Shown in pieces: positions 1 through 24,644 of a DNA stretch of 40,442 bases. Numbering within the stretch: the stretch's first letter is position 1; each line of letters opens with the position of its first letter. The notes beneath the pieces are model-generated. The model was not told where the DNA came from. It saw only the letters and a program-made list of their open reading frames with translations, and did no database searches. Source of the stretch: a virus; the IMG/VR virus record IMGVR_UViG_3300008267_000398, positions 7,480-47,921 of that record. One strand, given 5' to 3'. The position numbers and the translations under genes are program-made.

Positions 1-3000
1 ACAATTCCAGGTGATTATTTTAATGATGTTAATTTCCAAGCACCAAAACTTGAAAAAGCATTAAATGTTGTTAATGGTGTTACCGGTGGTTTGTTAGGTC
101 CAATACTTGATGTTTTTAGAAATCCATCTGAAACATTTGTCGCTAATACCGGAAACGGACAAAGATCCATTTTATTTTCATCATTAGATTATAACAAATA
201 TAGACCAAAATATACCAGAGGACCATTACAAAGTATTACAACTGGACTTGATAGAATTCTTGATCCAGATAAACCAAATACTGGTGGATATTATGTTGGA
301 AGTCCAGAAGCTGAACCATCACAGATTGATTCTCCTGCGAATCAAATTCCAGTTGGACCTGGTGGTAGACAAATAAATACAATTGTTTATGGACCACAAG
401 AATTAGGTATATTATATGAAGGTAATGAAAGTAAAATTGTAAATGGTCTTAAAGGAAAATCATTAAGTAATGGTGGTGGTATTTCAGGTCAATTTGTTTG
501 GACATCACCAAAATATAAAGATAATGCTGGATTCAAGCAAGGTGTTGGTGGTAAAGTAACATCATTAGACCAAGAATTTGAAACAATAAGAGCTGATTAT
601 TCCAGTTATCAATCAACAGAAATTCCATTTAAAGAAGGTTCAATTTTAGATGATACCCAAAGATTAATCGAATCTGCAGATAAGGTTACTGGTCAATCAA
701 GATTAAAACACGTCGGTAATGCAATTAATCAAGTATCAAAAGTGTTTAATGATGGTTACAAAGAATTAACAAAAGGTTCGCAAGTTTTATCTTATAAAAA
801 TAATTCAGATGGAAATGAAGATGGTATTGAATATTGTAGAGTTTTTACAAAAGATACACCATATTACACATACGCCGATTTACAAAAATCTGATGGTATC
901 ACAACAGAAGGTAGAAAATTTTCATACTCAATATTTGACAAAGCGTACAATTTAAATATTGCACCACTTAAAAATCCTGGATCAACGAATATTGTTGATA
1001 ATAAAGTTAAGAAATATATGTTTTCAATTGAGAATCTCGCTTGGAGAACTTCGGATAGACCCGGATTTACTTACGATGATTTACCGGTATGTGAAAAAGG
1101 ACCAAATGGTGGTAGAATAATGTGGTTTCCACCATACGATTTAACATTTTCTGATGATAGCACACCAGAATTTAATAAGACATCGTTTTTAGGTAGACCA
1201 GAACCGATATATACATATAAAAATACAACAAGAAAAGGTTCAATAAGTTGGAAAATAATTGTGGATCATCCGGCGGTAATGAATACAATCGTCCAAAAAC
1301 AATTGAAAAAAATAGACCCACAAAAAGTCGATTCAATGTTGGATTCATTCTTTGCTGGTTGTTTGAAATATGATTTATATGAATTGGGTATTAAATTTAA
1401 CACAATACCGACAAGGGATTTATTTACATACCAACAAGTATTAAATAACCCAAGATTAACATCTGAAGAATTGGGACAAGTTGCATTTGAAATTCCTAAA
1501 CAACCAGAACAAGCAGATAAAACTATTGGAAGTAGTACTAACGCTGACACATCACCGACAGATGCTAAAACTAAAGTTGAAAATAACACAACAAACGCTC
1601 TTGAAGATGTGGATTTATCAAAATTCATAAATTACGCTTTTTATTTTGATAATGATTGTCCTGAATGTAAAGGAAGTTGGAGTAAAACCGCTAGTCAACC
1701 ATATGATAGTTGGTATAGTGGATATGTCGGTAATAAAGGAAAATATGATACATCAGCACCAACCATAACATATTCAAAAGAAAGTGATGGAACATATAAA
1801 GAATGGAGTAAAGCTGGTATTCCAGATTTCTTTACACAAGTTATTGAAGGTAATTTTACAGTAATCAAAGATACTCTTATAACACAAATTGCAGAAATAC
1901 TACTTAATGGTGGTGAAGTATCTGTAGATTTAGTTGGTTCCGCATCTGCGGTACAAACCGTGGCATATAACCAAACTTTATCTGAAAGAAGGATTGATTC
2001 GGTATTACAATGGTTTAGGAAACAAAAAGATAAAAACGGAAAATCTTTTGAAGATTATATTAAGGATAAAAAATTAACAGTTAAAGGTAACCCAAAGGGT
2101 GAAACAGCTGTAATACCAAAAACAAGTACCGAAGTTAAAACTGACGCAACCGTTGTTAATTCATCTGGTAAAGATGGTGTATTAGCTGACACAGTGAATT
2201 GTAGTGCTAACCTTAATATAAAAACCGGTAATACATATAAAGTAACTTCAGCGGCCGAAATATATTCAATACCAGCTATGGCTTGTAGAAGGGTTACAAT
2301 TAAAGACATTAAAGCAAAACAACCACCAAAAAAACAAACTGGCGGTGGTGGTGAAGAAAAAAAACCAACACCAAATGTTGAAGAAAAAAAGGAACAAGCC
2401 TCAAGCGTTCAAACTAATCCAGCTCAAACAATTAAACCATCACCAAACATTACTGTGGAGCAAAAAATTAAAGATGGTATTTCAAAAAAAGTTTTAAGAA
2501 CATTATTTTCTGAATGTGATTATTTTGAGGTGTTAAAAGAATCTGACCCAATGATTTTCCAATCAATTAAAGATAAGATTAAATATTTTAACCCAGCATT
2601 CCATTCAATGACACCTGAAGGTTTAAATGGTAGATTAACATTTTTAAATCAATGTGTTAGACCAGGACAAACAATTCCTATTATTGGTGCCGATGGTAGA
2701 CCAAAATACAATGACGCTTTAAATACTTCTTTTGGTGCACCACCAATTTTGGTTTTAAGAGTTGGCGACTTTTACCATAGTAAAATTGTCCCAAATAGTT
2801 TATCATTTTCATATGAAGAAGCAAAATATGATTTAAATCCAGAAGGTATTGGTGTGCAACCAATGATTGTTAAAGTAACATTAGGGTTTGATTTTATTGG
2901 TGGACACGGACTAAAACAACCAGTAGAAGAATTACAAAATGCACTATCATTTAATTTTTACGCTAATACGGAAATTTATGATGAAAGAGCAACAGCTACT

Positions 3001-4284
3001 GAAGATATTAGTGCTAGAGACAAATATGTTGTTGAAAAAATATTAGCTAGTCAACCACCAGTTTCAGTTGCCGAAATTAAAAATACACAACCTAAAAAAG
3101 GTGGAAATACGATTGGGACAATATTGTCGGATACTCAAATTGATTATACAAGTCAAATGAATGATTTTTGGAATAAAACAAAAGAGTATTTTGATACAGT
3201 TATAGATACACACACAACACTTGTTAAGAATTTTAACATTGGGATTGTTGATTTATTATATTACGATAGAAATTTTAGTGAAGGTAAATTTGATGAATAT
3301 GGAACTTCGTCAAAACTACCAATTTATGGAAAACCAAATAAAATAGAAGATAAGATTAATAAATTATTCAGTGAAAGTATTTCAGATGTTAAAAAAAGAA
3401 ACGACCCTTTTATGGTTGAAATTGATAAAAGTAAGGTGTTAAAAAATACTGAAAAAAGAGAATTAGAAAGAAGATTAATTCTGTTTATTGAAAGTTTACA
3501 ATCTGATTTTTCATTAAAATTAAATAATGATATTTCAAATTTGGTAAATAATCAGCAAGATTATATTCAAAATATTAGAAAATTTAATTTAATATTAACA
3601 AAGACTGATGGTTCATTAAATTCTGAAAACAAACCAGTTGTTTACAACTTATCTGGTGACACATATGATTTATTTAAAAATAATTATACAAAGATTAAAG
3701 ATAAACACATAACATTCTTTGATGAACCAACAAACATTATCCAACAAGATAAATATTTGTTTTTGAATAAAGAACATTATAAACCATCTGCCGCTTTATT
3801 TATTGATAATAATTATAGTAAAAAATCAGTTGATAATAATTTTAGTAAAAAACCAGAGTCTTGGGCTTTCGGTAATTCAACAATAAGTGAAGATGATGCG
3901 ACAAATAGGTTTTATCAAATTATGGCACAAACATTTTTTGTTGAAAATAGTCGAAATTCATTAAAAACTTTCTTATTAGATAGTCAGGTTTATAGGGACA
4001 AAAATTTAGTAGGAACTGAAATAGATAAGGCTATGAATATTTGTGTGATATTATTTAATGGTTATACAAAAGTTAATATAGATATATACGCTAAGATAAA
4101 AGATTCTGATACATATAAGTCGTTAATCCAATCACCACTTAACGAAAATGATAAATATGTTCTTGATTATTTAATACCAACTGATGGTACAAACGACCAA
4201 CAAAAAAGAATAACAGACTTGTATTCGATAAATAATTTAAATAATGACTTTAAAACTTTTGATGGAAAAGTAAAATTTAATTAA
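1..4284 (+). CDS. Large baseplate/tail structural protein with embedded OmpA-like domain (5' partial)
   Basis: The frame is open from base 1, so the true start lies upstream; the TTG at 91 is only the first possible start inside the window and coding-quality residues (TIPGDYFNDV...) precede it. About 1,427 residues are visible. The region around 1010-1280 (GRIMWFPPYDLTFSD, LGRPEPIYTYKNTTRKGSI, IIVDHP) looks like myovirus baseplate/tail-tube-associated proteins. Bases ~1617-2320 encode an OmpA/MotB-like domain: YAFYFDNDCPE, then AYNQTLSERRIDSVLQWF, and a closing CRRVTI. A Gly/Lys/Pro linker follows (~2320-2460), then a second structural region (ILVLRVGDFYHSKIVP, ~2745-2990) and a Lys/Asn-rich C-terminus. 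It ends one base before the gp53-like gene, so the two are probably co-transcribed. The tail/baseplate assignment rests on context and on these motifs; the exact T4 equivalent is not clear. Confidence 0.75.
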   Translation, partial: TIPGDYFNDVNFQAPKLEKALNVVNGVTGGLLGPILDVFRNPSETFVANTGNGQRSILFSSLDYNKYRPKYTRGPLQSITTGLDRILDPDKPNTGGYYVGSPEAEPSQIDSPANQIPVGPGGRQINTIVYGPQELGILYEGNESKIVNGLKGKSLSNGGGISGQFVWTSPKYKDNAGFKQGVGGKVTSLDQEFETIRADYSSYQSTEIPFKEGSILDDTQRLIESADKVTGQSRLKHVGNAINQVSKVFNDGYKELTKGSQVLSYKNNSDGNEDGIEYCRVFTKDTPYYTYADLQKSDGITTEGRKFSYSIFDKAYNLNIAPLKNPGSTNIVDNKVKKYMFSIENLAWRTSDRPGFTYDDLPVCEKGPNGGRIMWFPPYDLTFSDDSTPEFNKTSFLGRPEPIYTYKNTTRKGSISWKIIVDHPAVMNTIVQKQLKKIDPQKVDSMLDSFFAGCLKYDLYELGIKFNTIPTRDLFTYQQVLNNPRLTSEELGQVAFEIPKQPEQADKTIGSSTNADTSPTDAKTKVENNTTNALEDVDLSKFINYAFYFDNDCPECKGSWSKTASQPYDSWYSGYVGNKGKYDTSAPTITYSKESDGTYKEWSKAGIPDFFTQVIEGNFTVIKDTLITQIAEILLNGGEVSVDLVGSASAVQTVAYNQTLSERRIDSVLQWFRKQKDKNGKSFEDYIKDKKLTVKGNPKGETAVIPKTSTEVKTDATVVNSSGKDGVLADTVNCSANLNIKTGNTYKVTSAAEIYSIPAMACRRVTIKDIKAKQPPKKQTGGGGEEKKPTPNVEEKKEQASSVQTNPAQTIKPSPNITVEQKIKDGISKKVLRTLFSECDYFEVLKESDPMIFQSIKDKIKYFNPAFHSMTPEGLNGRLTFLNQCVRPGQTIPIIGADGRPKYNDALNTSFGAPPILVLRVGDFYHSKIVPNSLSFSYEEAKYDLNPEGIGVQPMIVKVTLGFDFIGGHGLKQPVEELQNALSFNFYANTEIYDERATATEDISARDKYVVEKILASQPPVSVAEIKNTQPKKGGNTIGTILSDTQIDYTSQMNDFWNKTKEYFDTVIDTHTTLVKNFNIGIVDLLYYDRNFSEGKFDEYGTSSKLPIYGKPNKIEDKINKLFSESISDVKKRNDPFMVEIDKSKVLKNTEKRELERRLILFIESLQSDFSLKLNNDISNLVNNQQDYIQNIRKFNLILTKTDGSLNSENKPVVYNLSGDTYDLFKNNYTKIKDKHITFFDEPTNIIQQDKYLFLNKEHYKPSAALFIDNNYSKKSVDNNFSKKPESWAFGNSTISEDDATNRFYQIMAQTFFVENSRNSLKTFLLDSQVYRDKNLVGTEIDKAMNICVILFNGYTKVNIDIYAKIKDSDTYKSLIQSPLNENDKYVLDYLIPTDGTNDQQKRITDLYSINNLNNDFKTFDGKVKFN

Positions 4285-4285
4285 T

Positions 4286-4609
4286 ATGAACTTACAATAT
4301 TATAATAGATATAATCAATTTTTAGTAGATGGAAAACAACAAGTTGTTCCTTACATAACCATTCCGTCAAAAGCTACGGATAAGAATTATATTTATATTG
4401 CCGGACAATCAAGATTAGATAAAATATCTTTCCAATTTTACGGATCACCATTTTTTGGTTGGTTAATCCAACAAGCAAATCCACAATATTCCGGATCCGA
4501 ATGGAGTATTCCTGATGGTGCAATATTGACAATTCCATTTCCTTTGCTAAGTTCATTACAAGATTATAATAACGAATTAAACAACCACTTCTTCTATTAT
4601 GGTAGATAA
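4286..4609 (+). CDS. gp53: Baseplate wedge protein gp53-like, LysM-like fold
   Basis: A 107-residue protein. Residues ~30-85 (YIYIAGQSRLDKISFQFYG, FFGWLIQQANP, WSIPDGAILTIPFPL) follow the LysM-like pattern of T4 gp53: a repeat that starts the domain, an aromatic W-L-I-x-x-A-N segment, and an I-P-x-G-x-x-L-x-I-P ending. In T4, gp53 is part of the baseplate wedge and clamps the inner ring. The ATG is one base after the upstream stop, and the stop overlaps the next gene by 11 bases, which suggests translational coupling within one baseplate operon. Its length is about half that of T4 gp53, so it may be only the LysM-like core. A tail protein X-like role is the main alternative. Confidence 0.7.
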   Translation: MNLQYYNRYNQFLVDGKQQVVPYITIPSKATDKNYIYIAGQSRLDKISFQFYGSPFFGWLIQQANPQYSGSEWSIPDGAILTIPFPLLSSLQDYNNELNNHFFYYGR

Positions 4610-7600
4610 CGGAGAAAATATTTTAGTAGAATTTGATTACGACAACATATCCCTTATTGACCCAAACAAAGTAATAGATCAAGATGGTAAGGTTAAAGAT
4701 AGATTAGTCAAACAAGAAAATCTGGTTATGTATGCTAACCTTGAGTGTAGTGTCGTTCCCAGAACAAAATTAGCAATTGGTGCACCACTTAATGATAATG
4801 TAAGAACAATTTCAGTTGGAAAAATAAATTTCTTAAATCCTGGGTTTAAGACATTTATGAATAATAATTGGACTGATGAAATAACAGGTAAGGGTGCTAT
4901 TAAAGGTGAAGGTGTTAATCAACCAAAATTAAATGCGGTTAAAAACCCAAAGAAATCTGATGATTATTATATTTCACAATCATTATCATCAAACGGAACA
5001 CCTGGTGCTGTAGATAATGGACTTTTAGGTATTAAAAGTATTGAAGTTGCGATTGATACAAGCTTTTACCCACAAGTAACAATCCAATTAGAAGATGTTA
5101 AAGGTAGAGCGTTATTTGAAGGTGGAAATAGCTCACCATATGCCGCGTTCTTTCAATTACCATACCCAATATTTTACTTAACATTAAAGGGGTATTATGG
5201 TAAAGCCGTTAGGATGCCACTTATGTTACAGACATTTAATTCTACTTTTGATAACACATCTGGAAATTTTAAGATTAGTTTAAAATTATATGGTTACAAA
5301 TATGGTGTAATGTCTTATATAAATTGGGGACATATGCTTGCTGTTCCACATATGTATAATTCATTTGTAAGTCCAAATCAAGTTTCACAAGGAGGATCAA
5401 AACCAACTAACGGAGTTTCAAAACAATCATCGGACAATGTAAAACCAGTTGTTGTTTCAAGAGGTTACCAAAAAATGAAGGAATTATATTCCGAATATAA
5501 ATCAAAAGGTTTAATTGATGATGATTTTCCGGAATATAGTTTATTCCAATTAAAGAGTAAGTTAGATACTTTCATTAAGGATATATTAGAAAAATTCACA
5601 AAAGAAAATTTAGGATCATTAACTGAACTTGAAAATTTCCAAACATTATTAACCGAATTTCAAAAGAAAGTATTTTTTGATACCAATTCTTGGTATAGAA
5701 CATATATGGATTTTAAATTCCCACTTGTTTTAACCGACAACACAAAAGTATATACCTTTAGTAAAGATTATGATACAGCACAGAAAAAAAATGATGCAAT
5801 AACAGAACTTAATGGTATTATTAAAGATTTTACAAAAAAATTAGAAGCTAATAGTGTTGCCGGTAAAAATGGAAGTTATACTGTTGGTGGAAAACAAACA
5901 AAGAGTCAAGTTCCAGTAAATGTTACAATAGATAAATTTAAAAAAACAATCACAATAAATGACGTTGATTTTACTAAATCATTTAATGAAGCTTATGGTA
6001 AAACAACATCCGGTGGAACATTAGTTCAGGAATTTACAACTACGAAAACTAATGAAATACCATCAAACCAATATTTTGTTTTTGATGGAAAAGGAACTTT
6101 TAATGATATTTGTAATCAAGCAGCAAAAGAATTAACAACTTTAAGAGCTGAAATTGAAAAACAAATTACAGATAATTTAGGAGAACAATTAGCAAGAAAA
6201 GATAGTGGTATTGGGTTTAAACCAACAATTAGAAATATTCTTGCGGTTTTTTACGCCCAAGGTGAAGCTTTTTTAAGATTGATGGATGATGTCCATAATG
6301 CTGCATGGGAAGTAAGAGACGACCCATACAGACGAGCATCTGTTTTCGGAACAACTACAGCTCAGAGTGTTGATGTTAAAAATGCACAACAATCTACTGA
6401 ACCAATATATCCTTGGCCACAAATCATTCTTGAATCACAAGGTGATGATTCACAAGAAAAATTCGCTTTGAAATATCCTGGAGATCCAAAACTATCTTCA
6501 ATAACAAAAGCATATATTCCGGAGTTATGGCCTGAAGTTGAATTTGTTGAAGAATATATAAAAGGTTTTATTGAAAGGGAAGCACCAGAACCGGATTTGG
6601 GTGATTCGAATAATTCCGAACAACAACCAATGAGATTAAGTTTAAACGCTGTAGATTTTCCGGTGTCAAATGAGGTCTTTCAAAATAAAGAAGAAGTAAA
6701 ATTCTATTATGAAATTTACGAAAGGGTTATGGTTAATACTTTTTATTCTAAATTAAGTAGGGTAGATGGTTATCAATCAAGTGTTTATTTAGTTGAATCT
6801 GAAAATGAAAAAATAAATGCACTTAAATCCTTGGGATCTGATAATCCGTTTTTAATCAAAAAGTTAAAACAATATTTAATTGATGGTGCGAACTTCCAAA
6901 CATTTTTAAGACATATATCAAATCAAGGAGAAGGGGAAAGTTGGCAAAAATTTATTAGGGGTGAATTTGTTACACCATATATTAAAAATAAAACAAACAC
7001 ACCTTTTCAGTTATTTAATAGAAACTTATTATTAAGTCCTTCATCACAACCAAATGTTTCGGCAACACAACAAAATAAAATTGAAGATTACATTCAAGTA
7101 AAAACATATAGTAATCAATTTGATTTTACCGATATGTATCCAATAACAAATCTTGATTGGTGTAAAGATTATTTAGCGAATGGTAAAGGAACAAATGGTG
7201 TTAATGAAATTTTTAATACAAATAAAACATTAGTTTATAATACAACACAAAAAACAATCACAAACTTTAAAAGTGATGATACTACTGACGTTAAAAGACC
7301 TATAACTAATTTTAATTATACTACAGATATATTTAATCAAACTATAAATTCAAACCTTAAACAATTTTATAGAAATAGAAAAATTGAAGATCAGTTTATA
7401 ACTGAAGGTAATGTTTATTATTCTGGTTATAATGGTAATTTAAGTGAAGAACAAACAACATCAATGATGAATACACCGTATTTCATAAATGCGATACAAA
7501 ATGGTGTATTTAATTTTAGATATAACTCAAAGGATTTAAATCCATATAAAGCGGCAGCATATCTTTTTATTAATAGTTTACCAACAGCAACATTAAGAGA

Positions 7601-10600
7601 AAGATTTAAAACAAAAGACGCATCAGAAGATTTGGATTATATTGTATCAACACTTAAAAAATTTGGTGCGGTCCATAAATTACCATATGTTTGGGTTTTA
7701 AAATATGGGTCAATCTGGCACAGATATAAAACTTGGAACAGAGAAGGAAAGGACATTTTAGATAATTCTTGGAAAGACTTTAATTATTTATCAAATTATG
7801 ATCCGGTTAATTCGGCAACGACAAAAACATACACATTAAATATTGATGGGACACAAAGAAATATCACTTTAACACAAAATCTTGGGACTGGTTCATATAC
7901 AACATATATGAATACCGGTTTTTACCCAAAATTGATTGATGATATGAATGTATTCTTACAAGGACTTAAATTATTTAGTGGGTCAACACAATTAAACGGA
8001 ACTTGTGATGTGTTTGACGATACTATGGTTGTTTATACGGTAAATGATAATAGTTTAACACCTGGTAATACACTATCCGGACCTAAAGTTGATTTGGGGA
8101 CTACAATTATTTCACAAATTAGTGGGACAACTGGTGGTGTTGGAATTTATAAAATTGCACCATCACAAAATTTAACAAAAATAAATGGAACTTGTAATAT
8201 TTCTGGAACAACACTTGAATTAACCTTTATTACTGGTGGGACATTAGATGTTAATGCGAAAATAGCAGGACCTAATATTATACCAGGAACTAAAATAATT
8301 TCAAAAATAACTGGAACAACAAATCCTAATTTAGTATATACTATTGACACGGCACAAAATTATTCTGGAGCAACATTCTTCGTTTCCGAACCTTCTGATT
8401 TTTTTGTGACCAACGCACAAACAACTGGATACGGACAAGGTGAAATACAAGCACTAATTGACAATAAGAAATTAGTATTATCAACAAATATAAATTCAAA
8501 AATAATTAAAACAACAGGATTTGATTCAAATAACCCAAATCGAAATTTAAATCTAACTCCTTGGTCTGTCTTATCAAAATTAACTAATGAAGAAAAATAT
8601 TATGTTTTACCATCTTTCGGTAATACAAAGAATCAAGTTAATGATGAATGTTTCAAAAATGGTAATCTAAAATTAGAAATTACTGGAAATACAGCTGTAT
8701 TTAATGGTTCAGCAAGAATGTTTTGGGGTGCACCAAATTATGGATATTTTGATAATAATAGTGTTAAAATTCCAGATCCAGATTCCTACCTAAAACAAAT
8801 TTTTAATGACAAGAAAATACAGGAAAATTTTTCAATAAATGGTGATAAGTCAGAATACACAAAAATTTCTGAAATATTCACAACATTTGAAACAAAAGTT
8901 TTAGATTCTTTTGAAGAAGAATTTTTGAATTATAGTAGATCAATTTATGATTATAAAACAATGATTCCAGCTGAAGAAGGTGAAGAAACCGAAACAGAAA
9001 TAGCGGTTAAGAATTTCCAATATTTTATGAGGTTGTTAATGAAAGTTGAAAAACCAACATCAATTGGAACTGAAGGGTTAATTGATGAAGTTATAACAAA
9101 ACAAAATCAAAATTTCCAATCGTTATTTAATAGTCTAATGACATATGACACAGTTTTTAGATTTGGAAACCCAACAATGTTTGATAAAAGATTATTTTAT
9201 ACTTTTTCAACAAAATTTTTAGAAGAACCAATTAGATATCAGGGTTATAATCAAAGTATGGCCGGATTTTTACCAACAGCTGGTGGTGGTGTTACATTAG
9301 CACAATCTAAAGCCGCATACCCAGAAACCTGGAAAGACCTTGAATATTATGTTGGATTTTCTGAAATACCAGAATTGAAATATACTGACAATGGTTCATA
9401 TATTACAGATTTCTTTGTTGATATGAATGTCCAGTTTTCACAAAAAAATATAAAGGATTTCGCACCAATCATTAAATTATATGCAACACAGAAGCTACTA
9501 AACCCAAAGATGGATTATTCAAAGTTCATTACACTTATGAATACATATTTGGATACTTGTGAACTATACCAAACAAATGTAATAAATGATTTAATGACAG
9601 GGATTAGAGGTGGTTTACCTGATGTTTCAATAGTTAAACAAAACCCAGACCAAAAAGCACCACTTGTTGGTGACCAAAGTAGGGATGAACTTTGGGATTC
9701 TTTTAAATCTTTAAATGATACTTGGATTTCTGGTATTGATTTAAAAACTAAAACATTGTTTGAAGATATACTTTTATTTGATAGAGCTTGTAGAGATGTC
9801 GGACAAAAAGTTCTTGTTGATATTTTTAAAATTAAGGATTTAATTGAAACAACATTACCAAATAATAAATTGGAAAATATAGTTAAAACACTTTTAACTG
9901 AAAATAATTTTAGTTTTTTCCCACTACCAGCTTATAGTAATTTTTATAATGCACAAGAAACTGTAAAAAATCCAGTTCCACAAGCTGAAGGAACAAATGA
10001 ATTCGCTAGTTCTATCTGGGGAACATTTTTAAATGTGGACTATAGAAATACTTCACCAAAATATTTGTGTTATTATAGGAGTGTCCCAAGTAATCACTTA
10101 GCAATGAATGATAATGCTGATTATAAATTTAGAGATGATGCTTTTGATTTAAGAAGGGCTAGTGATAACCCACTACTTGAAAATCAATTAAATAAAACTA
10201 ATTGGGATAAATCAAATAAAGTATGTGGGTTCAATGTTGATTTCAGTAATCAAAACCAACAAATATTTTATCAAATCAATTTACAACAAAGTGTTGGAAA
10301 ACCGACAGCAGAATCACTTGAAATGATAAACCAAATGGCAAACTCAAGTAGAAACAGAGGTACAGGGTCTCAAAGTGTATCATTATATAACATTTATAAA
10401 AATAGAAGTTATGAATGTACGATTGATATGATGGGTAATGCGTTGATACAACCTATGATGTATTTTAATTTAAGAAATATTCCTATGTTTAGTGGTCCAT
10501 ATATGATTACTAAAATATCACATAGTATTAGTGAAGGTGACTTTAAAACAAGTATTACCGGAACAAGACAACCATTTTATGATTTACCAAAAATAGATAA

Positions 10601-10724
10601 TTTTATCCAAGCTTTAAGTTTTAAAATAATTGATAAATTAAAGGATCAATTACAGAAGAAAGAAACAGCTGAAATATCATCAAGTATTTACAAATGTTGC
10701 AAACCCAGAATTAACAACAATTAA
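4599..10724 (+). CDS. Giant tail hub/baseplate protein (gp27/gpD-like C-terminus)
   Basis: A 2,041-residue protein overlapping the gp53-like gene by 11 bases. The N-terminal ~250 residues contain IEVAIDTSFYPQVTIQLEDV and PYPIFYLTLKGYYG, typical of phage structural proteins. Near the C-terminus (~10390-10590) the pattern YECTIDMMGNALIQPMMYF, FSGPYMITKISHSI and F-K-T-S-I-T-G-T-R matches the closing part of tail hub proteins (gp27 / late-control gpD type). Residues ~1133-1264 hold two tandem ~65-residue units (separate entry). The last residues (YKCCKPRINNN) look unlike the rest, while good coding sequence continues in another frame, so a frameshift near 10675-10705 is likely. T4 gp27 is only 391 residues, so this is a greatly expanded hub or a fusion. 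The structural call is firm; the exact homologue is inferred. Confidence 0.7.
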   Translation: MVDNGENILVEFDYDNISLIDPNKVIDQDGKVKDRLVKQENLVMYANLECSVVPRTKLAIGAPLNDNVRTISVGKINFLNPGFKTFMNNNWTDEITGKGAIKGEGVNQPKLNAVKNPKKSDDYYISQSLSSNGTPGAVDNGLLGIKSIEVAIDTSFYPQVTIQLEDVKGRALFEGGNSSPYAAFFQLPYPIFYLTLKGYYGKAVRMPLMLQTFNSTFDNTSGNFKISLKLYGYKYGVMSYINWGHMLAVPHMYNSFVSPNQVSQGGSKPTNGVSKQSSDNVKPVVVSRGYQKMKELYSEYKSKGLIDDDFPEYSLFQLKSKLDTFIKDILEKFTKENLGSLTELENFQTLLTEFQKKVFFDTNSWYRTYMDFKFPLVLTDNTKVYTFSKDYDTAQKKNDAITELNGIIKDFTKKLEANSVAGKNGSYTVGGKQTKSQVPVNVTIDKFKKTITINDVDFTKSFNEAYGKTTSGGTLVQEFTTTKTNEIPSNQYFVFDGKGTFNDICNQAAKELTTLRAEIEKQITDNLGEQLARKDSGIGFKPTIRNILAVFYAQGEAFLRLMDDVHNAAWEVRDDPYRRASVFGTTTAQSVDVKNAQQSTEPIYPWPQIILESQGDDSQEKFALKYPGDPKLSSITKAYIPELWPEVEFVEEYIKGFIEREAPEPDLGDSNNSEQQPMRLSLNAVDFPVSNEVFQNKEEVKFYYEIYERVMVNTFYSKLSRVDGYQSSVYLVESENEKINALKSLGSDNPFLIKKLKQYLIDGANFQTFLRHISNQGEGESWQKFIRGEFVTPYIKNKTNTPFQLFNRNLLLSPSSQPNVSATQQNKIEDYIQVKTYSNQFDFTDMYPITNLDWCKDYLANGKGTNGVNEIFNTNKTLVYNTTQKTITNFKSDDTTDVKRPITNFNYTTDIFNQTINSNLKQFYRNRKIEDQFITEGNVYYSGYNGNLSEEQTTSMMNTPYFINAIQNGVFNFRYNSKDLNPYKAAAYLFINSLPTATLRERFKTKDASEDLDYIVSTLKKFGAVHKLPYVWVLKYGSIWHRYKTWNREGKDILDNSWKDFNYLSNYDPVNSATTKTYTLNIDGTQRNITLTQNLGTGSYTTYMNTGFYPKLIDDMNVFLQGLKLFSGSTQLNGTCDVFDDTMVVYTVNDNSLTPGNTLSGPKVDLGTTIISQISGTTGGVGIYKIAPSQNLTKINGTCNISGTTLELTFITGGTLDVNAKIAGPNIIPGTKIISKITGTTNPNLVYTIDTAQNYSGATFFVSEPSDFFVTNAQTTGYGQGEIQALIDNKKLVLSTNINSKIIKTTGFDSNNPNRNLNLTPWSVLSKLTNEEKYYVLPSFGNTKNQVNDECFKNGNLKLEITGNTAVFNGSARMFWGAPNYGYFDNNSVKIPDPDSYLKQIFNDKKIQENFSINGDKSEYTKISEIFTTFETKVLDSFEEEFLNYSRSIYDYKTMIPAEEGEETETEIAVKNFQYFMRLLMKVEKPTSIGTEGLIDEVITKQNQNFQSLFNSLMTYDTVFRFGNPTMFDKRLFYTFSTKFLEEPIRYQGYNQSMAGFLPTAGGGVTLAQSKAAYPETWKDLEYYVGFSEIPELKYTDNGSYITDFFVDMNVQFSQKNIKDFAPIIKLYATQKLLNPKMDYSKFITLMNTYLDTCELYQTNVINDLMTGIRGGLPDVSIVKQNPDQKAPLVGDQSRDELWDSFKSLNDTWISGIDLKTKTLFEDILLFDRACRDVGQKVLVDIFKIKDLIETTLPNNKLENIVKTLLTENNFSFFPLPAYSNFYNAQETVKNPVPQAEGTNEFASSIWGTFLNVDYRNTSPKYLCYYRSVPSNHLAMNDNADYKFRDDAFDLRRASDNPLLENQLNKTNWDKSNKVCGFNVDFSNQNQQIFYQINLQQSVGKPTAESLEMINQMANSSRNRGTGSQSVSLYNIYKNRSYECTIDMMGNALIQPMMYFNLRNIPMFSGPYMITKISHSISEGDFKTSITGTRQPFYDLPKIDNFIQALSFKIIDKLKDQLQKKETAEISSSIYKCCKPRINNN
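7995..8386 (+). repeat. Two tandem ~65-residue repeats inside the hub-like protein
   Basis: Unit 1 (~7995-8183) and unit 2 (~8184-8386) share the order NGTC, then SGP or AGP, then GT.IIS.I.GTT, then Y.I..(S/A)QN. This G-T-x-I-I-S pattern resembles short beta repeats found inserted in many phage virion proteins. It interrupts the surrounding protein and may be a surface-exposed decoration. Confidence 0.6.
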
Positions 10725-10833: not shown

Positions 10834-11220
10834 ATGGATTCTGGTAGTGGAAATAATTTGAAGGCGTATGAAAATAATTTTTCATCAGTTTCATTAGACC
10901 AAACCTACGGACCATCATTTATATCGTTTGTTGATAAAAATTATTATTGTATTAATAGAGGAACAATAAAAGACATACCTATGGTTAAGTTTACATCAAC
11001 TGCAAAATTTTTAGATTTTGCAATATCAAAAGCACCATCAATTTTACAAACATATATGAGTAGTAACCAAAAATTACAAACAATTGTAAAAATATACACA
11101 ACTTCTTGGCCAACTATAAGAAATAGTAATGTTTATGATAAATTGACAGAACAAGATAAGAAAAAATTAGAAAATGCTGCAGAACAAGCAAATGATTTAT
11201 TTAATTCCGTTAATAGTTAA
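10834..11220 (+). CDS. C-terminal continuation of the hub-like protein in another frame (or separate small tail protein)
   Basis: From the ATG the protein is 128 residues (MDSGSGNNLKAYENNF...). The same frame is open from 10642, and the stretch between ~10690 and 10834 reads as normal protein (NPELTTINANDF, EKEVYLRQLLFILIF) with no ATG. The ATG at 10834 has no A-rich leader and sits inside a hydrophobic helix. The real product therefore probably begins further upstream, most likely fused to the 2,041-residue protein by a +1 shift, either programmed or a sequencing/assembly error. The segment YLRQLLFILIFMDSGSG...AYENNF looks like a compact globular domain that I cannot name. A bare A/T intergenic follows with a promoter-like motif. 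Confidence 0.55.
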   Translation: MDSGSGNNLKAYENNFSSVSLDQTYGPSFISFVDKNYYCINRGTIKDIPMVKFTSTAKFLDFAISKAPSILQTYMSSNQKLQTIVKIYTTSWPTIRNSNVYDKLTEQDKKKLENAAEQANDLFNSVNS

Positions 11221-12287: not shown

Positions 12288-13043
12288 ATGGCGACAAACA
12301 ATGTTTTAGATGCGGTTTTGGCTCAGTACGAGAATGCAAAACAAAGTGGTTCTTCTTCCACTTCAAAAATGTCTCAAGAAGAAAGAATGAAAAAGTATTT
12401 TGCTGCAATACTTAAAGACAACGAAAAGCAAGCACAAAAAAAGATTCGTATCTTACCTACACCAGATGGATCATCACCATTCAAAGAAGTTTGGTTTCAC
12501 GAAATCAACGTTGATGGTAAATGGCAAAAATTCTACGATCCAGGAAAGAATGATAATGAACGATCACCTTTAAGTGAAGTTTACGATGTCCTTATGTCAA
12601 CTGGTAGAGAATCTGACAAAGAATTGGCAAAACAATACAAACCTCGTAAGTTTTATATTGTTAAAGTAATTGACCGTGATAACGAACAAGACGGACCTAA
12701 ATTCGAATTAACTAAAGCAAAAACGCCAAAAGGTGCGTTCTATACTGTAATCCAAACAGTTATGTATGATGATCCATCTCCGGTTCACGAAGATGGTGAT
12801 ACAATGTCAGAATGGGTTAATGATGAACTTACTTGGGAAGATGTTTATTCTAAAAAACCTACAGAGTATTTGGAAGCAATTGCTCGTGGTGAAACACCAA
12901 GATGGGATTCTGATGCCGGAAAATATATCTTCGCAAACACAGAAGAAAGTGAAATTTCAATGGGTGGTTCTAAAACAACAGAAGAAGTTAAAGTTGTTGA
13001 CCCACAACTTAATGATGAAATAGACGAAGAATTACCGTTCTAA
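12288..13043 (+). CDS. gp32: Single-stranded DNA-binding protein, gp32-like
   Basis: A 251-residue protein. It coats ssDNA during replication and recombination and would partner UvsX and the helicase encoded downstream. The core KKIRILPTPDGSSPFKEVWF, NVDGKWQKFYDPG and ARKFYIV-like strand (KPRKFYIVKVIDRDNEQDG) match the OB-fold of T4 gp32 (RLLP..., G-K-W). Unlike T4 gp32 there is not a single cysteine, so the zinc-binding subdomain is missing. The N-terminus is followed by a Ser/Thr-rich flexible stretch. The C-terminus is acidic and ends DEIDEELPF, resembling the protein-interaction tip of bacterial SSB (DDIPF). Terminators stand on both sides, and more CGT arginine codons are used than in the tail genes, consistent with a separately and strongly expressed gene. 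Confidence 0.8.
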   Translation: MATNNVLDAVLAQYENAKQSGSSSTSKMSQEERMKKYFAAILKDNEKQAQKKIRILPTPDGSSPFKEVWFHEINVDGKWQKFYDPGKNDNERSPLSEVYDVLMSTGRESDKELAKQYKPRKFYIVKVIDRDNEQDGPKFELTKAKTPKGAFYTVIQTVMYDDPSPVHEDGDTMSEWVNDELTWEDVYSKKPTEYLEAIARGETPRWDSDAGKYIFANTEESEISMGGSKTTEEVKVVDPQLNDEIDEELPF

Positions 13044-13060
13044 ATTTTAGTAAAATAAAG

Positions 13061-13095
13061 TGGGTGTGTTTATATACAATACACCCATTTTTTCT
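13061..13095 (+). terminator. Rho-independent terminator after the gp32-like gene
   Basis: A stem TGGGTGTGTT (13061-13070) / AATACACCCA (13078-13087) with a 7-base loop is followed by six or more T residues. It makes the gp32-like gene monocistronic. Confidence 0.8.
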
Positions 13096-13118
13096 TATAT
13101 TTTTTAAAAAAGAAATTT

Positions 13119-14105
13119 ATGGCAATAAGAAAAAAAGAGTTTAAGTTTGATGATATCAAAGCAAAGTTCTCAAGTAAAACAAAATATAAACCAGAAGCGT
13201 TTTATAATTGTGGCGAAGCATTTATGGAAGCTTGTGGGTTACCAGGACCAGTGATGGGTGGTGTCAATATGTTTTTAGGACATTCGAATAGTTCAAAAAC
13301 AACATCAATGATTTTAGCTGCTGTCGACGCCCAAAGAAAAGGTCATTTACCGGTGTTTATTATTACAGAAAAGAAATGGAATTGGGAACACGCTGTTGAA
13401 TTAGGTTTAGAAGCAACCAAGAACGAAGATGGTGAATGGGACGGAATGTTTATCTTTAATGATTCCTTTGATTATATAGAACAAGCAACAGATTTTATAA
13501 ATAATATTTTAGATTCACAAGAAAAGGGTGATATTCCATATAATTTATTATTTTTGTGGGACTCAATTGGGTCAATACCTTGTAAGATGACGTTTGATGG
13601 TTCAGGTGGTGGAATGCATAACGCAAAAGTTTTAGCCGATAAAATCGGAATGGGGATTCATTCAAGAATTTCAAAATCAAAAAAAGAAGATTACCCATAT
13701 TATAACACTTTAGTTGTTGTTAACCAACCCTGGGTTCTTCTTCCTGATAATCCATTCGGTCAACCTGAAATCAAAAGTAAAGGTGGTGAAGCGATTTGGT
13801 TAGCATCTTCATTAGTATTTTTATTTGGTAATCAAAAGAAAGCTGGTATAAGTCATATTGATGCGACAAAGAATGGTAGAAAAATATCATTCGCTATTAG
13901 AACAAAAATATCCATACTTAAAAACCACGTAAACGGGTTGGGTTATAAAGATGGTAAGATTATTGCGGTTCATAATGGTTATATTTCAGATACGAAAGAA
14001 TCGTTAGATAAATATAAAAGAGATTATGCTGATTATTGGGAAGTAAAAATGGGTGGATCTGAATTCGCATTAGAAGAATCTAATGACGATAATTATGACG
14101 AGTAA
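13119..14105 (+). CDS. uvsX: UvsX/RecA-like recombinase
   Basis: A 328-residue protein. Recombinases of this family form filaments on ssDNA and catalyse strand exchange, driving recombination-dependent replication in T4-like phages. Walker A is GHSNSSKT (residues 54-61), an atypical P-loop like that of T4 UvsX (GPSKSFKS). Walker B is NLLFLWDSIG (~142-151). VFIITEKK (~79-86) is the strand carrying the acidic residue expected after Walker A. GNQKKAGISHIDATKNG fits the DNA-binding loop region. The C-terminus is acidic (EESNDDNYDE). The start has an A-rich leader after the gp32 terminator; no clear promoter is visible in the short gap. Length fits the family (T4 UvsX about 390, somewhat shorter here). 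Confidence 0.85.
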   Translation: MAIRKKEFKFDDIKAKFSSKTKYKPEAFYNCGEAFMEACGLPGPVMGGVNMFLGHSNSSKTTSMILAAVDAQRKGHLPVFIITEKKWNWEHAVELGLEATKNEDGEWDGMFIFNDSFDYIEQATDFINNILDSQEKGDIPYNLLFLWDSIGSIPCKMTFDGSGGGMHNAKVLADKIGMGIHSRISKSKKEDYPYYNTLVVVNQPWVLLPDNPFGQPEIKSKGGEAIWLASSLVFLFGNQKKAGISHIDATKNGRKISFAIRTKISILKNHVNGLGYKDGKIIAVHNGYISDTKESLDKYKRDYADYWEVKMGGSEFALEESNDDNYDE

Positions 14106-14131
14106 AAAAGTAACAAATTATTAATAAAATT

Positions 14132-15154
14132 ATGACTAATAACAAATTAAAAGTAGTATCGTTATTTTCTGGTTATGGAACACAAGAGCTAGCCTTGAAA
14201 TACATTGGTGTTGATTATGAAAATGTTGCGAATTGCGACAATTTTAAACCGGCTAATGAATCTTATAATGCTTTACATACAACAACCAATGGTAATCTTG
14301 GTGATATTAGAATGATTGATGAAACGACACTCCCCCAATGTGATTTACTAACATATTCATTCCCTTGTCAGGATATTTCAATTTCTGGTGTTCAAAAAGG
14401 GATTAAAGAGGGGACAAGAAGTGGCTTATTATTTGAAGTTGAAAGATTATTAAGTGTAAATAGACCAAAATATCTTTTGATGGAAAATGTTAAAAATTTA
14501 ATATCAAAAAATCATATCGATAACTTCCAAAAACACATCTATTTCTTACGAGGTCTTGGTTATAGTTCATTCTGGAGAGTATTAAATGGTGCTGACTTCG
14601 GTTGTCCTCAAAATAGAGAAAGAGTTTTTATGATGTCAGTACTAAATAGTAGTATTGAAGAAGTTAAAGAAAAAATGATGAATGTTGATAATCACAAAAA
14701 AGATAGAGTTCCGATGAAACCATTTATCGAACAAGATTTCAATCAATCGTTAATTGTTGAGTGTGATTATACCCTACATCAACCAAAACAGAATTCAATC
14801 TGTAAGTTAATTGCTAGACGAAATGATGTGAGTTACGATCAAGCAAGACGAATATATTCAATCGATGGTTGTTCTCCTTGTTTAACGACAAGTGGGTCTC
14901 CACAGATTATGACAGAAGATGGTCGAGTTAGAAATATTACAGCAAGAGAAGGTTATAGATTTATGGGTGTAAAAGAAAAAGATATTGATTTATTACTTAC
15001 AACTTCATTATCAAATACATCCCACGTAGCTTTAGCCGGTAATTCAATATGTATTCCAGTTATGGAAGCGATATTTAGTGAATTTTTTTCAGAATATATC
15101 ACAACAGAAGAACCAGTATTGTCAAACCCTATTAACGAAACAACAAATGACTAA
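14132..15154 (+). CDS. DNA (cytosine-5) methyltransferase
   Basis: A 340-residue C5-cytosine methyltransferase that transfers a methyl group from SAM to cytosine in a specific DNA site. Motifs appear in order: I, VVSLFSGYGTQELAL (SAM binding); IV, TYSFPCQDISISG with catalytic C79; VI, LLMENVKNL; VIII, FGCPQNRERVFMM; then a short target-recognition region (~residues 170-290); IX, REGYRFMGV; X, ALAGNSICIPVMEAIF. All key residues are present, so it should be active. No restriction enzyme is encoded nearby, so it is probably an orphan phage methyltransferase shielding the genome from host restriction or marking it. Its stop overlaps the start of the exonuclease gene by 8 bases, placing it firmly inside the replication operon. 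The recognition site cannot be read from sequence. Confidence 0.9.
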   Translation: MTNNKLKVVSLFSGYGTQELALKYIGVDYENVANCDNFKPANESYNALHTTTNGNLGDIRMIDETTLPQCDLLTYSFPCQDISISGVQKGIKEGTRSGLLFEVERLLSVNRPKYLLMENVKNLISKNHIDNFQKHIYFLRGLGYSSFWRVLNGADFGCPQNRERVFMMSVLNSSIEEVKEKMMNVDNHKKDRVPMKPFIEQDFNQSLIVECDYTLHQPKQNSICKLIARRNDVSYDQARRIYSIDGCSPCLTTSGSPQIMTEDGRVRNITAREGYRFMGVKEKDIDLLLTTSLSNTSHVALAGNSICIPVMEAIFSEFFSEYITTEEPVLSNPINETTND

Positions 15155-16163
15155 AACCTTATTGGTTGATGGAAACAACCTACTAAAAGTAGGTTTCCAC
15201 GGTGTTAAAGATTTCTTTAATAAAGGAGAACACGTCGGTGGAACTTGGCATTTCCTAAACACATTAAGAAAGTTTTTAGAAGAAAATAATTACAATAAGA
15301 TTGTTGTTTGTTGGGACAGTGAAACTGGATCTTCACAGAGAAGAATTATATACCCAAAATACAAATTAAACCGAAAACAAAAGGTAGATGTTGATTATAA
15401 AGAACAATCGTTCTTAAATCAAAAGAATAGGGTAAAACAATACCTTGAAGAAATGTTTGTTAGACAATTGGAAGTAGAAGAATCTGAAGCTGATGATTTG
15501 ATTGCTTATTATTGTCAAATTTCAGAAGATGAAGATAAAACAATATTTTCATCCGATAGAGATTTAACACAACTTATTTCCGAAACGGTAACAATATATT
15601 CACCCCAACAAAAAAAATATTACAAGAATGGTGATGGGATTAAAATGGATAGTTCCAAAATCCCACACTATAATATTAAGACCTATAAAATATTAACTGG
15701 TGATAGTTCGGATAATATTGATGGGATTTTTTATTTGGGTGAAAAAACATTTCTAAAATTGTTTCCAGAAATACTTGATACTGAATTAAAATATACTGAT
15801 ATTTTAACAAAGGCGGAAACATTACTTTTGGAACAAAAAGGAAATGTTGCTTTACAAAATCTACTTAATGGTAAAACCAAAGAAGGGATATTTGGAAAAG
15901 AGTTTTTCACAGTAAACGAGAAGTTAGTTGACCTTGCAAACCCACTAATTTCTGAAGAAGGAAAAGAATTAGTTAAACTATATTACTCGGAGTCGTTGGA
16001 TCCAGACGGAAGAGGACATAGAAACCTAATTAGAATGATGATGGACGACGGATTTTTTAAATTTCTCCCAAAGGGTGATGACGCTTGGGTAAATTTTTTA
16101 AAACCATTTTTGAAACTATCAAGAAAAGAAAAAACAAATTTTAGAAACAAAACAAAAAATTAA
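15147..16163 (+). CDS. rnh: FEN-family 5'-3' exonuclease, T4 RNase H-like
   Basis: A 338-residue protein. In T4, RNase H removes RNA primers and adjacent DNA from Okazaki fragments with gp32. The start ATG at 15147 is chosen because the protein then begins MTKTLLVDGNNLL, the family's N-terminal metal-binding strand; a longer frame from 15078 adds only residues out of frame with the methyltransferase end. Acidic metal ligands follow the family order: D8, D57 (VVCWDSE), ESEADDL (E114, D116, D117), SSDRDL (D137, D139) and LTGDSSDN (D186, D189). The helical arch contains IYPKYKLNR. The C-terminus is Lys/Asn-rich. It overlaps the methyltransferase by 8 bases and is followed after 5 bases by the next gene. 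It is slightly longer than T4 RNase H (305). Confidence 0.85.
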   Translation: MTKTLLVDGNNLLKVGFHGVKDFFNKGEHVGGTWHFLNTLRKFLEENNYNKIVVCWDSETGSSQRRIIYPKYKLNRKQKVDVDYKEQSFLNQKNRVKQYLEEMFVRQLEVEESEADDLIAYYCQISEDEDKTIFSSDRDLTQLISETVTIYSPQQKKYYKNGDGIKMDSSKIPHYNIKTYKILTGDSSDNIDGIFYLGEKTFLKLFPEILDTELKYTDILTKAETLLLEQKGNVALQNLLNGKTKEGIFGKEFFTVNEKLVDLANPLISEEGKELVKLYYSESLDPDGRGHRNLIRMMMDDGFFKFLPKGDDAWVNFLKPFLKLSRKEKTNFRNKTKN

Positions 16164-16168
16164 AAAAA

Positions 16169-16612
16169 ATGAGAGAACAGGATGTAACAAAGGTTGAATT
16201 TTTGTTAATGTGTAATGAAAACATCGTAGTACAAAGATTTTTCAATGTGAAAGGTTTTAACAAAACCGCACATAAATCAGAGGAATTTTATGACTATATC
16301 AGAACTTTTTGCAATCAACTTCAAAATGATTTGAAGATGAGGTCAATTGTTTATATGTTAGATAACCAGTACGAAATTTCTGAAAATCCGGATGTTTTAA
16401 ATACATCAATCACTGAAGGTGATGAAAACTTTAACCTTTATATTAAGGTGGAAAATATGACAATTTGTCATAGAGTGTTTGACGCAAAAGTATACCCACC
16501 AAAGGTAAGATACACTGTAGATTTACGCCCAAAGCTAAAAACAATATTATCTGAACTTACTGACATTTTTTCAGGTAAAAAATTTAATTATTTTTATCCA
16601 CAATTTATCTAA
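16169..16612 (+). CDS. Hypothetical replication-module protein
   Basis: A 147-residue protein of unknown function. It looks like a compact alpha/beta domain with no signal peptide, membrane segment or recognisable catalytic motif; visible segments are VEFLLMCNENIVVQRFFNVKG, MRSIVYMLDNQYEISENPD and a C-terminal hydrophobic helix (PKLKTILSELTDIFSG). It lies 5 bases after the exonuclease and before the helicase, behind an A-rich leader (AATTAAAAAAAATG), so it is expressed with replication genes and may be an accessory factor. No closer assignment is justified. Confidence 0.65.
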   Translation: MREQDVTKVEFLLMCNENIVVQRFFNVKGFNKTAHKSEEFYDYIRTFCNQLQNDLKMRSIVYMLDNQYEISENPDVLNTSITEGDENFNLYIKVENMTICHRVFDAKVYPPKVRYTVDLRPKLKTILSELTDIFSGKKFNYFYPQFI

Positions 16613-16621
16613 TATTAGTAG

Positions 16622-16629
16622 TATTTATC
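16622..16629 (+). promoter_or_regulatory. TATTTATC promoter-like motif
   Basis: One of the recurring TATTTAT(A/C/T) motifs in this window; it ends 22 bases before the ATG of the helicase N-terminal fragment. Weak on its own in an AT-rich genome. Confidence 0.25.
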
Positions 16630-16651
16630 ATTACTAACAGAAAGAAAATAT

Positions 16652-17128
16652 ATGGCGACAAACAAAAACTTTGAATACCTTGGTAATAATTTCCAAATTC
16701 AATTACTTAATCAAATCATTTTAGATAAAGAGTTTTCACATTCAATAATTGATGTAATTGAAAACAATTATTTTGAAAACAAGTATTTCAAAATCATCAT
16801 TCAGATGATTAAGGAGTATTATAAAAAATACGAACATACACCATCGTTTGATACTTTAGAACAAGTCGCAAAATCCGAACTACAACAAGAAACCGCAGTT
16901 AAAGTTGTTCTTGATACGATTAAGAAAATTAAGTCCGCACCTATTGATGGGGCTGATTTCGTTCAAGAAAAAGCACTTAAATTCTGTAAACAACAAGAAT
17001 TACAGAAAGTAATGAAACAAGCACAAAAAATTATTGATGGTGGTGAGTTTGAAAGTTATGAAAACATTTCACACTCTGGACAAAGATTCACCCTGACGAA
17101 TTGTCAGAGAAAAAAGAAGATGTTTTAA
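16652..17128 (+). CDS. gp41: Replicative helicase gp41/DnaB-like, N-terminal fragment
   Basis: The reading frame gives 158 residues. The first ~138 (NFQIQLLNQIILDKEFSHSI, IIQMIKEYYKKYEHTPSFDT, ...IIDGGEFESYE) match the all-helical N-terminal domain of DnaB/T4 gp41 helicases. After about base 17060 the frame runs into unrelated residues (NISHSGQRFTLTNCQRKKKMF), because real helicase sequence continues in a different frame. The Walker A region that should follow is absent from the DNA altogether, not merely out of frame. Alone, this fragment could not act as a helicase. It may be a decayed gene, an assembly deletion, or half of a split protein. It starts after an A-rich leader and a TATTTATC motif. 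Confidence 0.7.
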   Translation: MATNKNFEYLGNNFQIQLLNQIILDKEFSHSIIDVIENNYFENKYFKIIIQMIKEYYKKYEHTPSFDTLEQVAKSELQQETAVKVVLDTIKKIKSAPIDGADFVQEKALKFCKQQELQKVMKQAQKIIDGGEFESYENISHSGQRFTLTNCQRKKKMF

Positions 17129-17727
17129 AGAAAGTAAAAGAAATCGAAAGTACAATGGAGAATACTTTAGATTTGAAAAAATTACCTTCTGATACTGTAA
17201 CAATGTTGCAAATCAAAAATGAAATTAGAAAAATGATTGCAGATGGTGTCAAGATAGATATGGTTGTTGTTGATTACATTGATTGTATTGTTCCAGATAA
17301 AAACCTTGGAGATGAATGGAAGAGTGAAGGTTCAGTTATGAGAGGATTTGAAGCAATGTGTCACGAACTTAATCTTGTTGGTTGGACAGCAACACAAGGT
17401 AATCGTTCTTCAATTTCTTCTGAAGTTGTAACAACAGACCAGATGGGTGGATCAATTAAGAAAGCACAAGTGGGACACGTAATTATTTCTGTAGCAAAAA
17501 CATTACAACAGAAAGAAATGAAGTTGGCAACAATAGCAATTACCAAGTCTCGTATTGGGGATGATGGTGTGGTGTTTGAAAATTGTAAGTTTGATAACGC
17601 TATGATTGAAATTGATACCGAATCAACAACCACATTCCTTGGTCTTGAAGAACAAAAAGAAGAACGACAAAGACAAAGAGTGAAAGAATTATTGGAAAAA
17701 AGACAACAAAAAGAACAAAAATCATAA
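17101..17727 (+). CDS. gp41: Replicative helicase gp41/DnaB-like, C-terminal ATPase fragment lacking Walker A
   Basis: From the TTG at 17101 the frame gives 208 residues, but the same frame is open from 17062 and its first residues (KHFTLWTKIHPDELSEKK) read as helicase, so TTG is probably not a real start. Visible helicase features are Walker B (VVVDYIDCI), the WTATQGNRSS strand after it, a conserved H-V-I-I-S-V strand, and SRIGDDGVVF near the arginine-finger region. The charged tail is coiled-coil-like (EERQRQRVKELLEKRQQ). The P-loop and following strand, roughly 110 residues in T4 gp41, are missing. Together with the N-terminal fragment this accounts for about 355 of an expected ~475 residues. 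The next gene, nrdB, follows after 21 bases. Confidence 0.7.
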   Translation: MSEKKEDVLKKVKEIESTMENTLDLKKLPSDTVTMLQIKNEIRKMIADGVKIDMVVVDYIDCIVPDKNLGDEWKSEGSVMRGFEAMCHELNLVGWTATQGNRSSISSEVVTTDQMGGSIKKAQVGHVIISVAKTLQQKEMKLATIAITKSRIGDDGVVFENCKFDNAMIEIDTESTTTFLGLEEQKEERQRQRVKELLEKRQQKEQKS

Positions 17728-21187: not shown

Positions 21188-21691
21188 ATGTCAAAAATTA
21201 TTAGATTAACAGAATCGGATTTAACTAAAATTGTTAAAAAAGTTATTACTGAACAAGAAGAAACTAAAGCTGCTGATAAAATAGAAAAAGTTATTGAAAC
21301 ACCAAAGGTGTTGGATAGATTAGAAGATATCGTTTCAAATATGTCTGAAAGAGAAAAAATGAAACTTAAAAACACTTTAGATGATTTAGGTATCGATGAA
21401 TATTCTTCAGCTAAAGAAGTTCACAACAAAATAAAAGATATTAGTGATGAAGAAATTGGTGGAGAAATTGAAGAAGATGAAAACCAGACACCAAAAGAAA
21501 AGGTTGCGGATATACTAAATTCAATAGGAGCTGGAAATATATCAGCTTGGGGTGGAGTTCCAGCGGCAATACTTATTGGTGGTGCTTTAGTTGGTACCGT
21601 TGCTTCACCTATGGTTGCTGGTTTTGCTATAAGTTGGGGTGTTACTGGTTTATTAATGGGTTTATCAAAACTTTTAAGTGATAAACATTAA
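21188..21691 (+). CDS. Leader-bearing protein with hydrophobic C-terminus (possible internal virion protein)
   Basis: A 167-residue protein. Residues 1-23 are the shared leader (KIIRLTESDL...KKVITEQ) ending in I-T-E-Q; see the gene at 24125. Residues ~24-115 are highly charged and helical (DKIEKVIETPKVLDRLEDIV, EEIGGEIEEDENQTP). Residues ~118-160 hold two Gly/Ala-rich hydrophobic segments (VPAAILIGGALVGTVASPMV and GFAISWGVTGLLMG) that could cross or insert into a membrane. I recognise no family. It is a stand-alone unit with its own promoter-like site and terminator, placed between nrdA and the gp25 gene. A membrane-active protein delivered from the virion is one reading; a simple phage membrane protein is another. 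Confidence 0.65.
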   Translation: MSKIIRLTESDLTKIVKKVITEQEETKAADKIEKVIETPKVLDRLEDIVSNMSEREKMKLKNTLDDLGIDEYSSAKEVHNKIKDISDEEIGGEIEEDENQTPKEKVADILNSIGAGNISAWGGVPAAILIGGALVGTVASPMVAGFAISWGVTGLLMGLSKLLSDKH

Positions 21692-24092: not shown

Positions 24093-24100
24093 TATTTATA
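24093..24100 (+). promoter_or_regulatory. TATTTATA promoter-like motif
   Basis: Part of AATATATTTATATTG in the 40-base gap after gp6; it ends 24 bases before the ATG at 24125. It shares the core with the sites at 11239 and 21167, both also ahead of leader-bearing operons. Confidence 0.4.
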
Positions 24101-24124
24101 TTGTAAATAACAAATCAAAAAAAA

Positions 24125-24541
24125 ATGATGAAAAAAATAATAAGATTAACAGAATCAGATTTAGTAAGAATTGTAAAGAAAATTATTAATGAACAGAAAA
24201 CACCAATTGATTTAGGTTTTGAAAAATGGGGAAAAGGGTTTTTATTAAGAATCCCAAAAGAATCAACACCAAATAAAAATGTAATTAGAATACAAGCTGA
24301 CCCAATTGGTGATAATTATAATATTATGATATTAGTACAAGGTAATAAAAGAATCAGATCAGAAATAAAAGGAATTAATGTGTTTAAAGAGATTGAAGAA
24401 ATGATAGGTTCAAAATTTAGAAGACATGATGATATATTTGATAGTGTTAGTGGTGAAGAATCAATAGAAGTGTTAAAAAATATTGTAACAAAATTAAAAA
24501 CATTAAAAATCGACGAAAAGAACAATTGGTTTGTAGTATAA
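24125..24541 (+). CDS. Leader-bearing small protein (possible internal virion protein)
   Basis: A 138-residue basic protein. Residues 1-24 (KKIIRLTESDLVRIVKKII-NEQ) are nearly the same as the leader at 21188, with a 14-base identical DNA stretch (AGATTAACAGAATC), but the remainder is unrelated. Residues ~30-138 look like a small alpha/beta domain with strands VIRIQADPIG and YNIMILVQG and a helical C-terminus (ESIEVLKNIVTKLKTLK). No catalytic motif or membrane segment is seen. It starts at an A-rich leader and is a single-gene unit between gp6 and the next large structural gene, with its own promoter-like site and terminator. Two ATG codons are adjacent (24125 and 24128); either could be the start. 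Confidence 0.65.
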   Translation: MMKKIIRLTESDLVRIVKKIINEQKTPIDLGFEKWGKGFLLRIPKESTPNKNVIRIQADPIGDNYNIMILVQGNKRIRSEIKGINVFKEIEEMIGSKFRRHDDIFDSVSGEESIEVLKNIVTKLKTLKIDEKNNWFVV

Positions 24542-24564
24542 TTTCAATATAGTTTAAAATTAAT

Positions 24565-24591
24565 CCCCACCCTCAACAAGTGGGGTTTTTT
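24565..24591 (+). terminator. Rho-independent terminator
   Basis: Stem CCCCAC (24565-24570) / GTGGGG (24580-24585) with a 9-base loop, followed by TTTTTTATTT. It ends the small leader-bearing gene. Confidence 0.82.
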
Positions 24592-24644
24592 ATTTCTTTT
24601 ACTTTTTTTAAAACAAGATTATTTTTTGAAAATAGGAAATAAAC

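Follow-up and report, generated by a model that had tools for sequence, protein, structure and literature searches.

The replicative helicase gene in IMG/VR virus record IMGVR_UViG_3300008267_000398 is broken in the middle, raising the question of whether the virus has lost the P-loop of its helicase or the record has lost a part of the virus. The window analysed here – a stretch of 40,442 nucleotides cut from the 47,921-base record, which is itself probably an incomplete fragment of the genome – has its first base at record position 7480, immediately behind a run of 39 Ns (record 7441-7479). A preliminary description reported N-terminal and ATPase parts of a helicase preserved in different frames, with about 330 bases (about 110 residues) including the P-loop absent between them. 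The split gene is composed as follows:

16652 to 17061, plus strand: N-terminal part of a DnaB-like (T4 gp41-like) replicative helicase (phrog_19, E=3e-12)
17061 to 17062, plus strand: join lacking 304 bases, Walker A among them, with a 2-base GA ambiguity; read as an unmarked contig join
17062 to 17727, plus strand: ATPase part that follows Walker A, in a different frame (phrog_19, E=2.7e-27; Pfam DnaB_C)

Both parts are indeed recognizable, with the N-terminal domain (16652-17059) aligning to positions 161-283 of phrog_19, and the downstream fragment also to positions 88-242 of Pfam DnaB_C (E=1.1e-05), scoring 25.4 bits (cut-off 27) compared to 46.6 bits for the intact helicase of the near-identical locus L087. 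The open frame from 16652 extends to 17128, and includes about 20 out-of-frame residues after 17061. The intact protein of a sister phage aligns with phrog_19 over 12-452 (E 1e-62), representing the DnaB-like helicase of T4-type phages (gp41; PHROG 19), and PDB 8dtp along 18-432, as well as 8due and 8g0z; all three entries are named DnaB-like replicative helicase, and we take them to be T4 gp41. The genes found beside the helicase – a gp32-like single-strand DNA-binding protein (SSB), a C5 cytosine methylase, a 5′-3′ exonuclease and, by inspection of translations, UvsX-like and ribonucleotide reductase genes – are consistent with a T4-like phage.

Several relatives lack the methylase gene (14108-15145), which is missing from them as one block of about 1,010 bases and is thus a variable gene in this phage group. 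Two otherwise unlike open reading frames (21188-21691 and 24125-24541) have a common start segment, M.KIIRLTESDL..IVKK.I.EQ, and starts of this type are shared by 26 open reading frames in 22 related loci; the segment may serve as a tag for sorting or capsid targeting that a prohead protease removes from the N-terminus, as in T4 internal proteins. The second of these frames is located in a segment of about 510 bases (24097-24598) that is lacking in the sister L092 and, in all, in well over 100 related loci, and is either a gained gene or another join. Upstream of the window, beside tail genes, locus L083 encodes two related proteins of about 530 amino acids (128-1744, minus strand, and 2380-3963, plus strand), which by eye look like putative homing-endonuclease-type proteins.

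Relatives were gathered using the C-terminal helicase half as the query, giving 80 viral loci, 76 of which contain both halves, and seven near-identical contigs were recruited with an exact 24-base pattern from the helicase gene. Losses were tallied along the whole window against all fetched loci; because several loci are pieces of one contig, the tallies count loci and not independent viruses. The two helicase halves are 304 bases further apart in all 76 relatives, and the whole-window tally at 17061|17062 gives exactly 304 bases in 115 of 116 locus comparisons. The absence that had been described is therefore confirmed, with a size of 304 rather than about 330 bases, and the frame change arises because 304 bases correspond to about 101 codons plus one base. 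Intact frames of the relatives are 457-466 amino acids long, and every one listed has Walker A as APTGVGKS at residue 200; the window helicase lacks residues 138-238 or thereabouts of this form, P-loop included. The helicase Walker A (GxxxxGK[ST]) is lacking from the window copy and from the record, and a search of the 47.9-kb record for the lost segment matched only the fragment at the helicase locus itself. Unusual nucleotide conservation was considered as a cause of an assembly break and rejected, the lost segment being about as conserved as its flanks.

The closest sequences have an intact gene. Up to 17061, L087 and L090 each share 99.3% identity with the window, and both continue across the site without interruption; in L087 the 304 bases follow, then sequence at 98.8% identity to the window, and the helicase is intact at 459 amino acids. 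With sisters about 99% identical across the site carrying the whole gene, the earlier picture of a dead helicase in an otherwise complete replisome finds no support. The first 136 helicase codons have no nucleotide difference between the window and L087, and the last 221 differ by 15 synonymous and 0 non-synonymous changes. No residues private to the window are found in the fragments when compared to the 80 viral loci, and no relaxed selection or decay is seen relative to L087 and those loci, which is not as expected of a gene whose P-loop was lost some time ago.

The helicase is not the only gene affected. Three clean losses (107, 111 and 304 bases) stand out in that the window alone lacks each stretch, the first two being within 6.4 kb of the helicase join:

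4599 to 10724, plus strand: large structural-region gene of 2,041 codons, truncated by the frame change at 10685|10686
10685 to 10686, plus strand: third unmarked join, with loss of 107 bases and no homology (0 bases)
12288 to 13043, plus strand: gp32-like SSB gene, lacking 111 bases
12704 to 12705, plus strand: second unmarked join, with loss of 111 bases and no homology (0 bases)

The 111 bases missing from the SSB gene represent 37 codons (WRFKHNYK...DLIL), and the loss is seen relative to 64-67 relatives, a few of which give 109; L090 also retains them. The 107-base loss is seen relative to all eight loci compared, and in L251 the frame of the large gene runs 213 amino acids further, taking in the open reading frame at 10834-11220. 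Findings based on the lengths or frames of the SSB gene or the 2,041-codon gene should be re-read in light of these losses.

The 39 Ns ahead of the window offer a calibration. In L265, and in ten further loci whose edges are equally clean, 316 bases stand in their place, and in more distant relatives 313-331 bases, showing that this gap was underestimated by about 277 bases; a mask would have preserved the length. An error of about 277 bases would make the true gaps of 107 and 111 bases negative and that of 304 bases near zero, such that they would be closed without Ns, as observed. According to the OPERA-LG authors, scaffold indel errors stem from gap-size estimation where read coverage is low, and truncated insert distributions introduce a bias (PMC4864936).

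Taken together, the comparisons suggest, at a probability of roughly 0.93, that the helicase break is an assembly artefact in which short-read contigs were abutted with underestimated gaps. The window would belong to a scaffold pieced together from short contigs of a metagenome, between which the assembler or scaffolder set gap sizes too small by as much as about 300 bases. One gap would have stayed marked, with 39 Ns for 316 bases, and three (304, 111 and 107 bases) would have been closed to nothing, leaving blunt joins in the helicase, the SSB and the large structural-region gene. All of the lost segments are present in near-identical sequences (L087, L090, L251 and L265), and the three losses occur in the same record as the marked gap of wrong length. 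Against this stands the lack of Ns at three of the four joins. Loss of bases during assembly was among the options in the preliminary description, and four joins – one of them N-marked – together with intact sisters strongly support it. We infer that scaffolding, and not the sequenced molecules, gave rise to the joins, and that the helicase of the phage is very probably an ordinary, intact protein of the gp41/DnaB type, about 459 amino acids long.

Locus L084 bears on this from two sides. It matches the window at 100% over two stretches, 12705-17061 (4,357 bases) and 12591-12704 (114 bases), and contains the 111 SSB bases, showing that the SSB loss is absent from another assembly of apparently the same genotype; its contig terminates exactly at 17061, which is thus a point where assembly stops. 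This end can be read either as a contig end later joined by a scaffolder, or as a graph branch formed by reads of both forms. The latter, a de Bruijn branch, would be compatible with a deletion that is real but confined to a minority, or with a chimera from the library, and it is mainly for this reason that our confidence in scaffolding as the explanation is not set higher.

A real deletion variant would be a defective genome lacking the P-loop segment and living beside, or helped by, intact phages or the host DnaB, the last being a suggestion already made for this DNA. The clean junction sequence without Ns fits such a variant, and a mixed population would be expected to end L084 exactly at a branch point, but the helicase, the SSB and the large gene of some 2,000 residues would all have to be broken by independent, near-blunt deletions in one genome of a recently intact lineage, with a marked scaffold gap adjoining the same region, the SSB segment kept by the same genotype in L084, and the helicase fragments free of decay. 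Neither the helicase junction (17061|17062) nor the SSB junction (12704|12705) matches any other viral contig, in a search that may omit the records nearest to the window's own. The A-rich microhomology deletion point that had been proposed also finds no counterpart, since homology with the lost segments at the four edges is 0, 0, 2 and 0 bases – the two being GA at the helicase join – rather than the several bases at a breakpoint that microhomology-mediated deletion would leave. We regard a deletion variant as very unlikely, and its fuller form – a real, helper-dependent genome of a large T4-like phage, defective in replication through its disabled helicase and SSB and sharing a natural population with its intact parent – as less likely still.

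Physical chimeras from library preparation, produced by amplification or template switching and assembled as genuine, would account for the near-blunt character of the joins (0-2 bases of homology), and would likewise yield reads across the junction and a branch in the assembly graph at 17061. They leave the wrong-size 39-N gap in the same record unexplained, however, and three chimeras each beating the true path are less likely than wrong gap sizes; this origin is a slimmer prospect than either form of the deletion. A family naturally without the region is refuted, since the region is in place in every relative, and supply of the lost part by another gene, through a split gene or bypass, fares little better: the gene could lie outside a record that is probably a fragment, but no P-loop piece is encoded elsewhere within it, and ribosome bypass could not restore codons missing from the DNA. 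We give these last possibilities almost no weight.

The helicase break is therefore a real observation with an almost certainly artefactual cause, and no biological significance is expected of it, the phage helicase very likely being normal. Its wider relevance is that in public virus records a gap closed without Ns can mimic the loss of an essential gene, and that setting a record beside near-identical contigs, and beside the gaps still marked within it, exposes such cases.

Relative to T4-type gp41 and DnaB, the window copy differs in lacking the Walker A region and in its frame change, both of which we judge to be artefact. The closer parallel is with the scaffold indel errors of short-read metagenomes, with which the window shares clean losses whose contig edges show no homology, a gap in the record marked at the wrong length, and intact near-identical sequences elsewhere. 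It differs from them in that three of the four gaps are without Ns, and can thus pass for genuine deletions.
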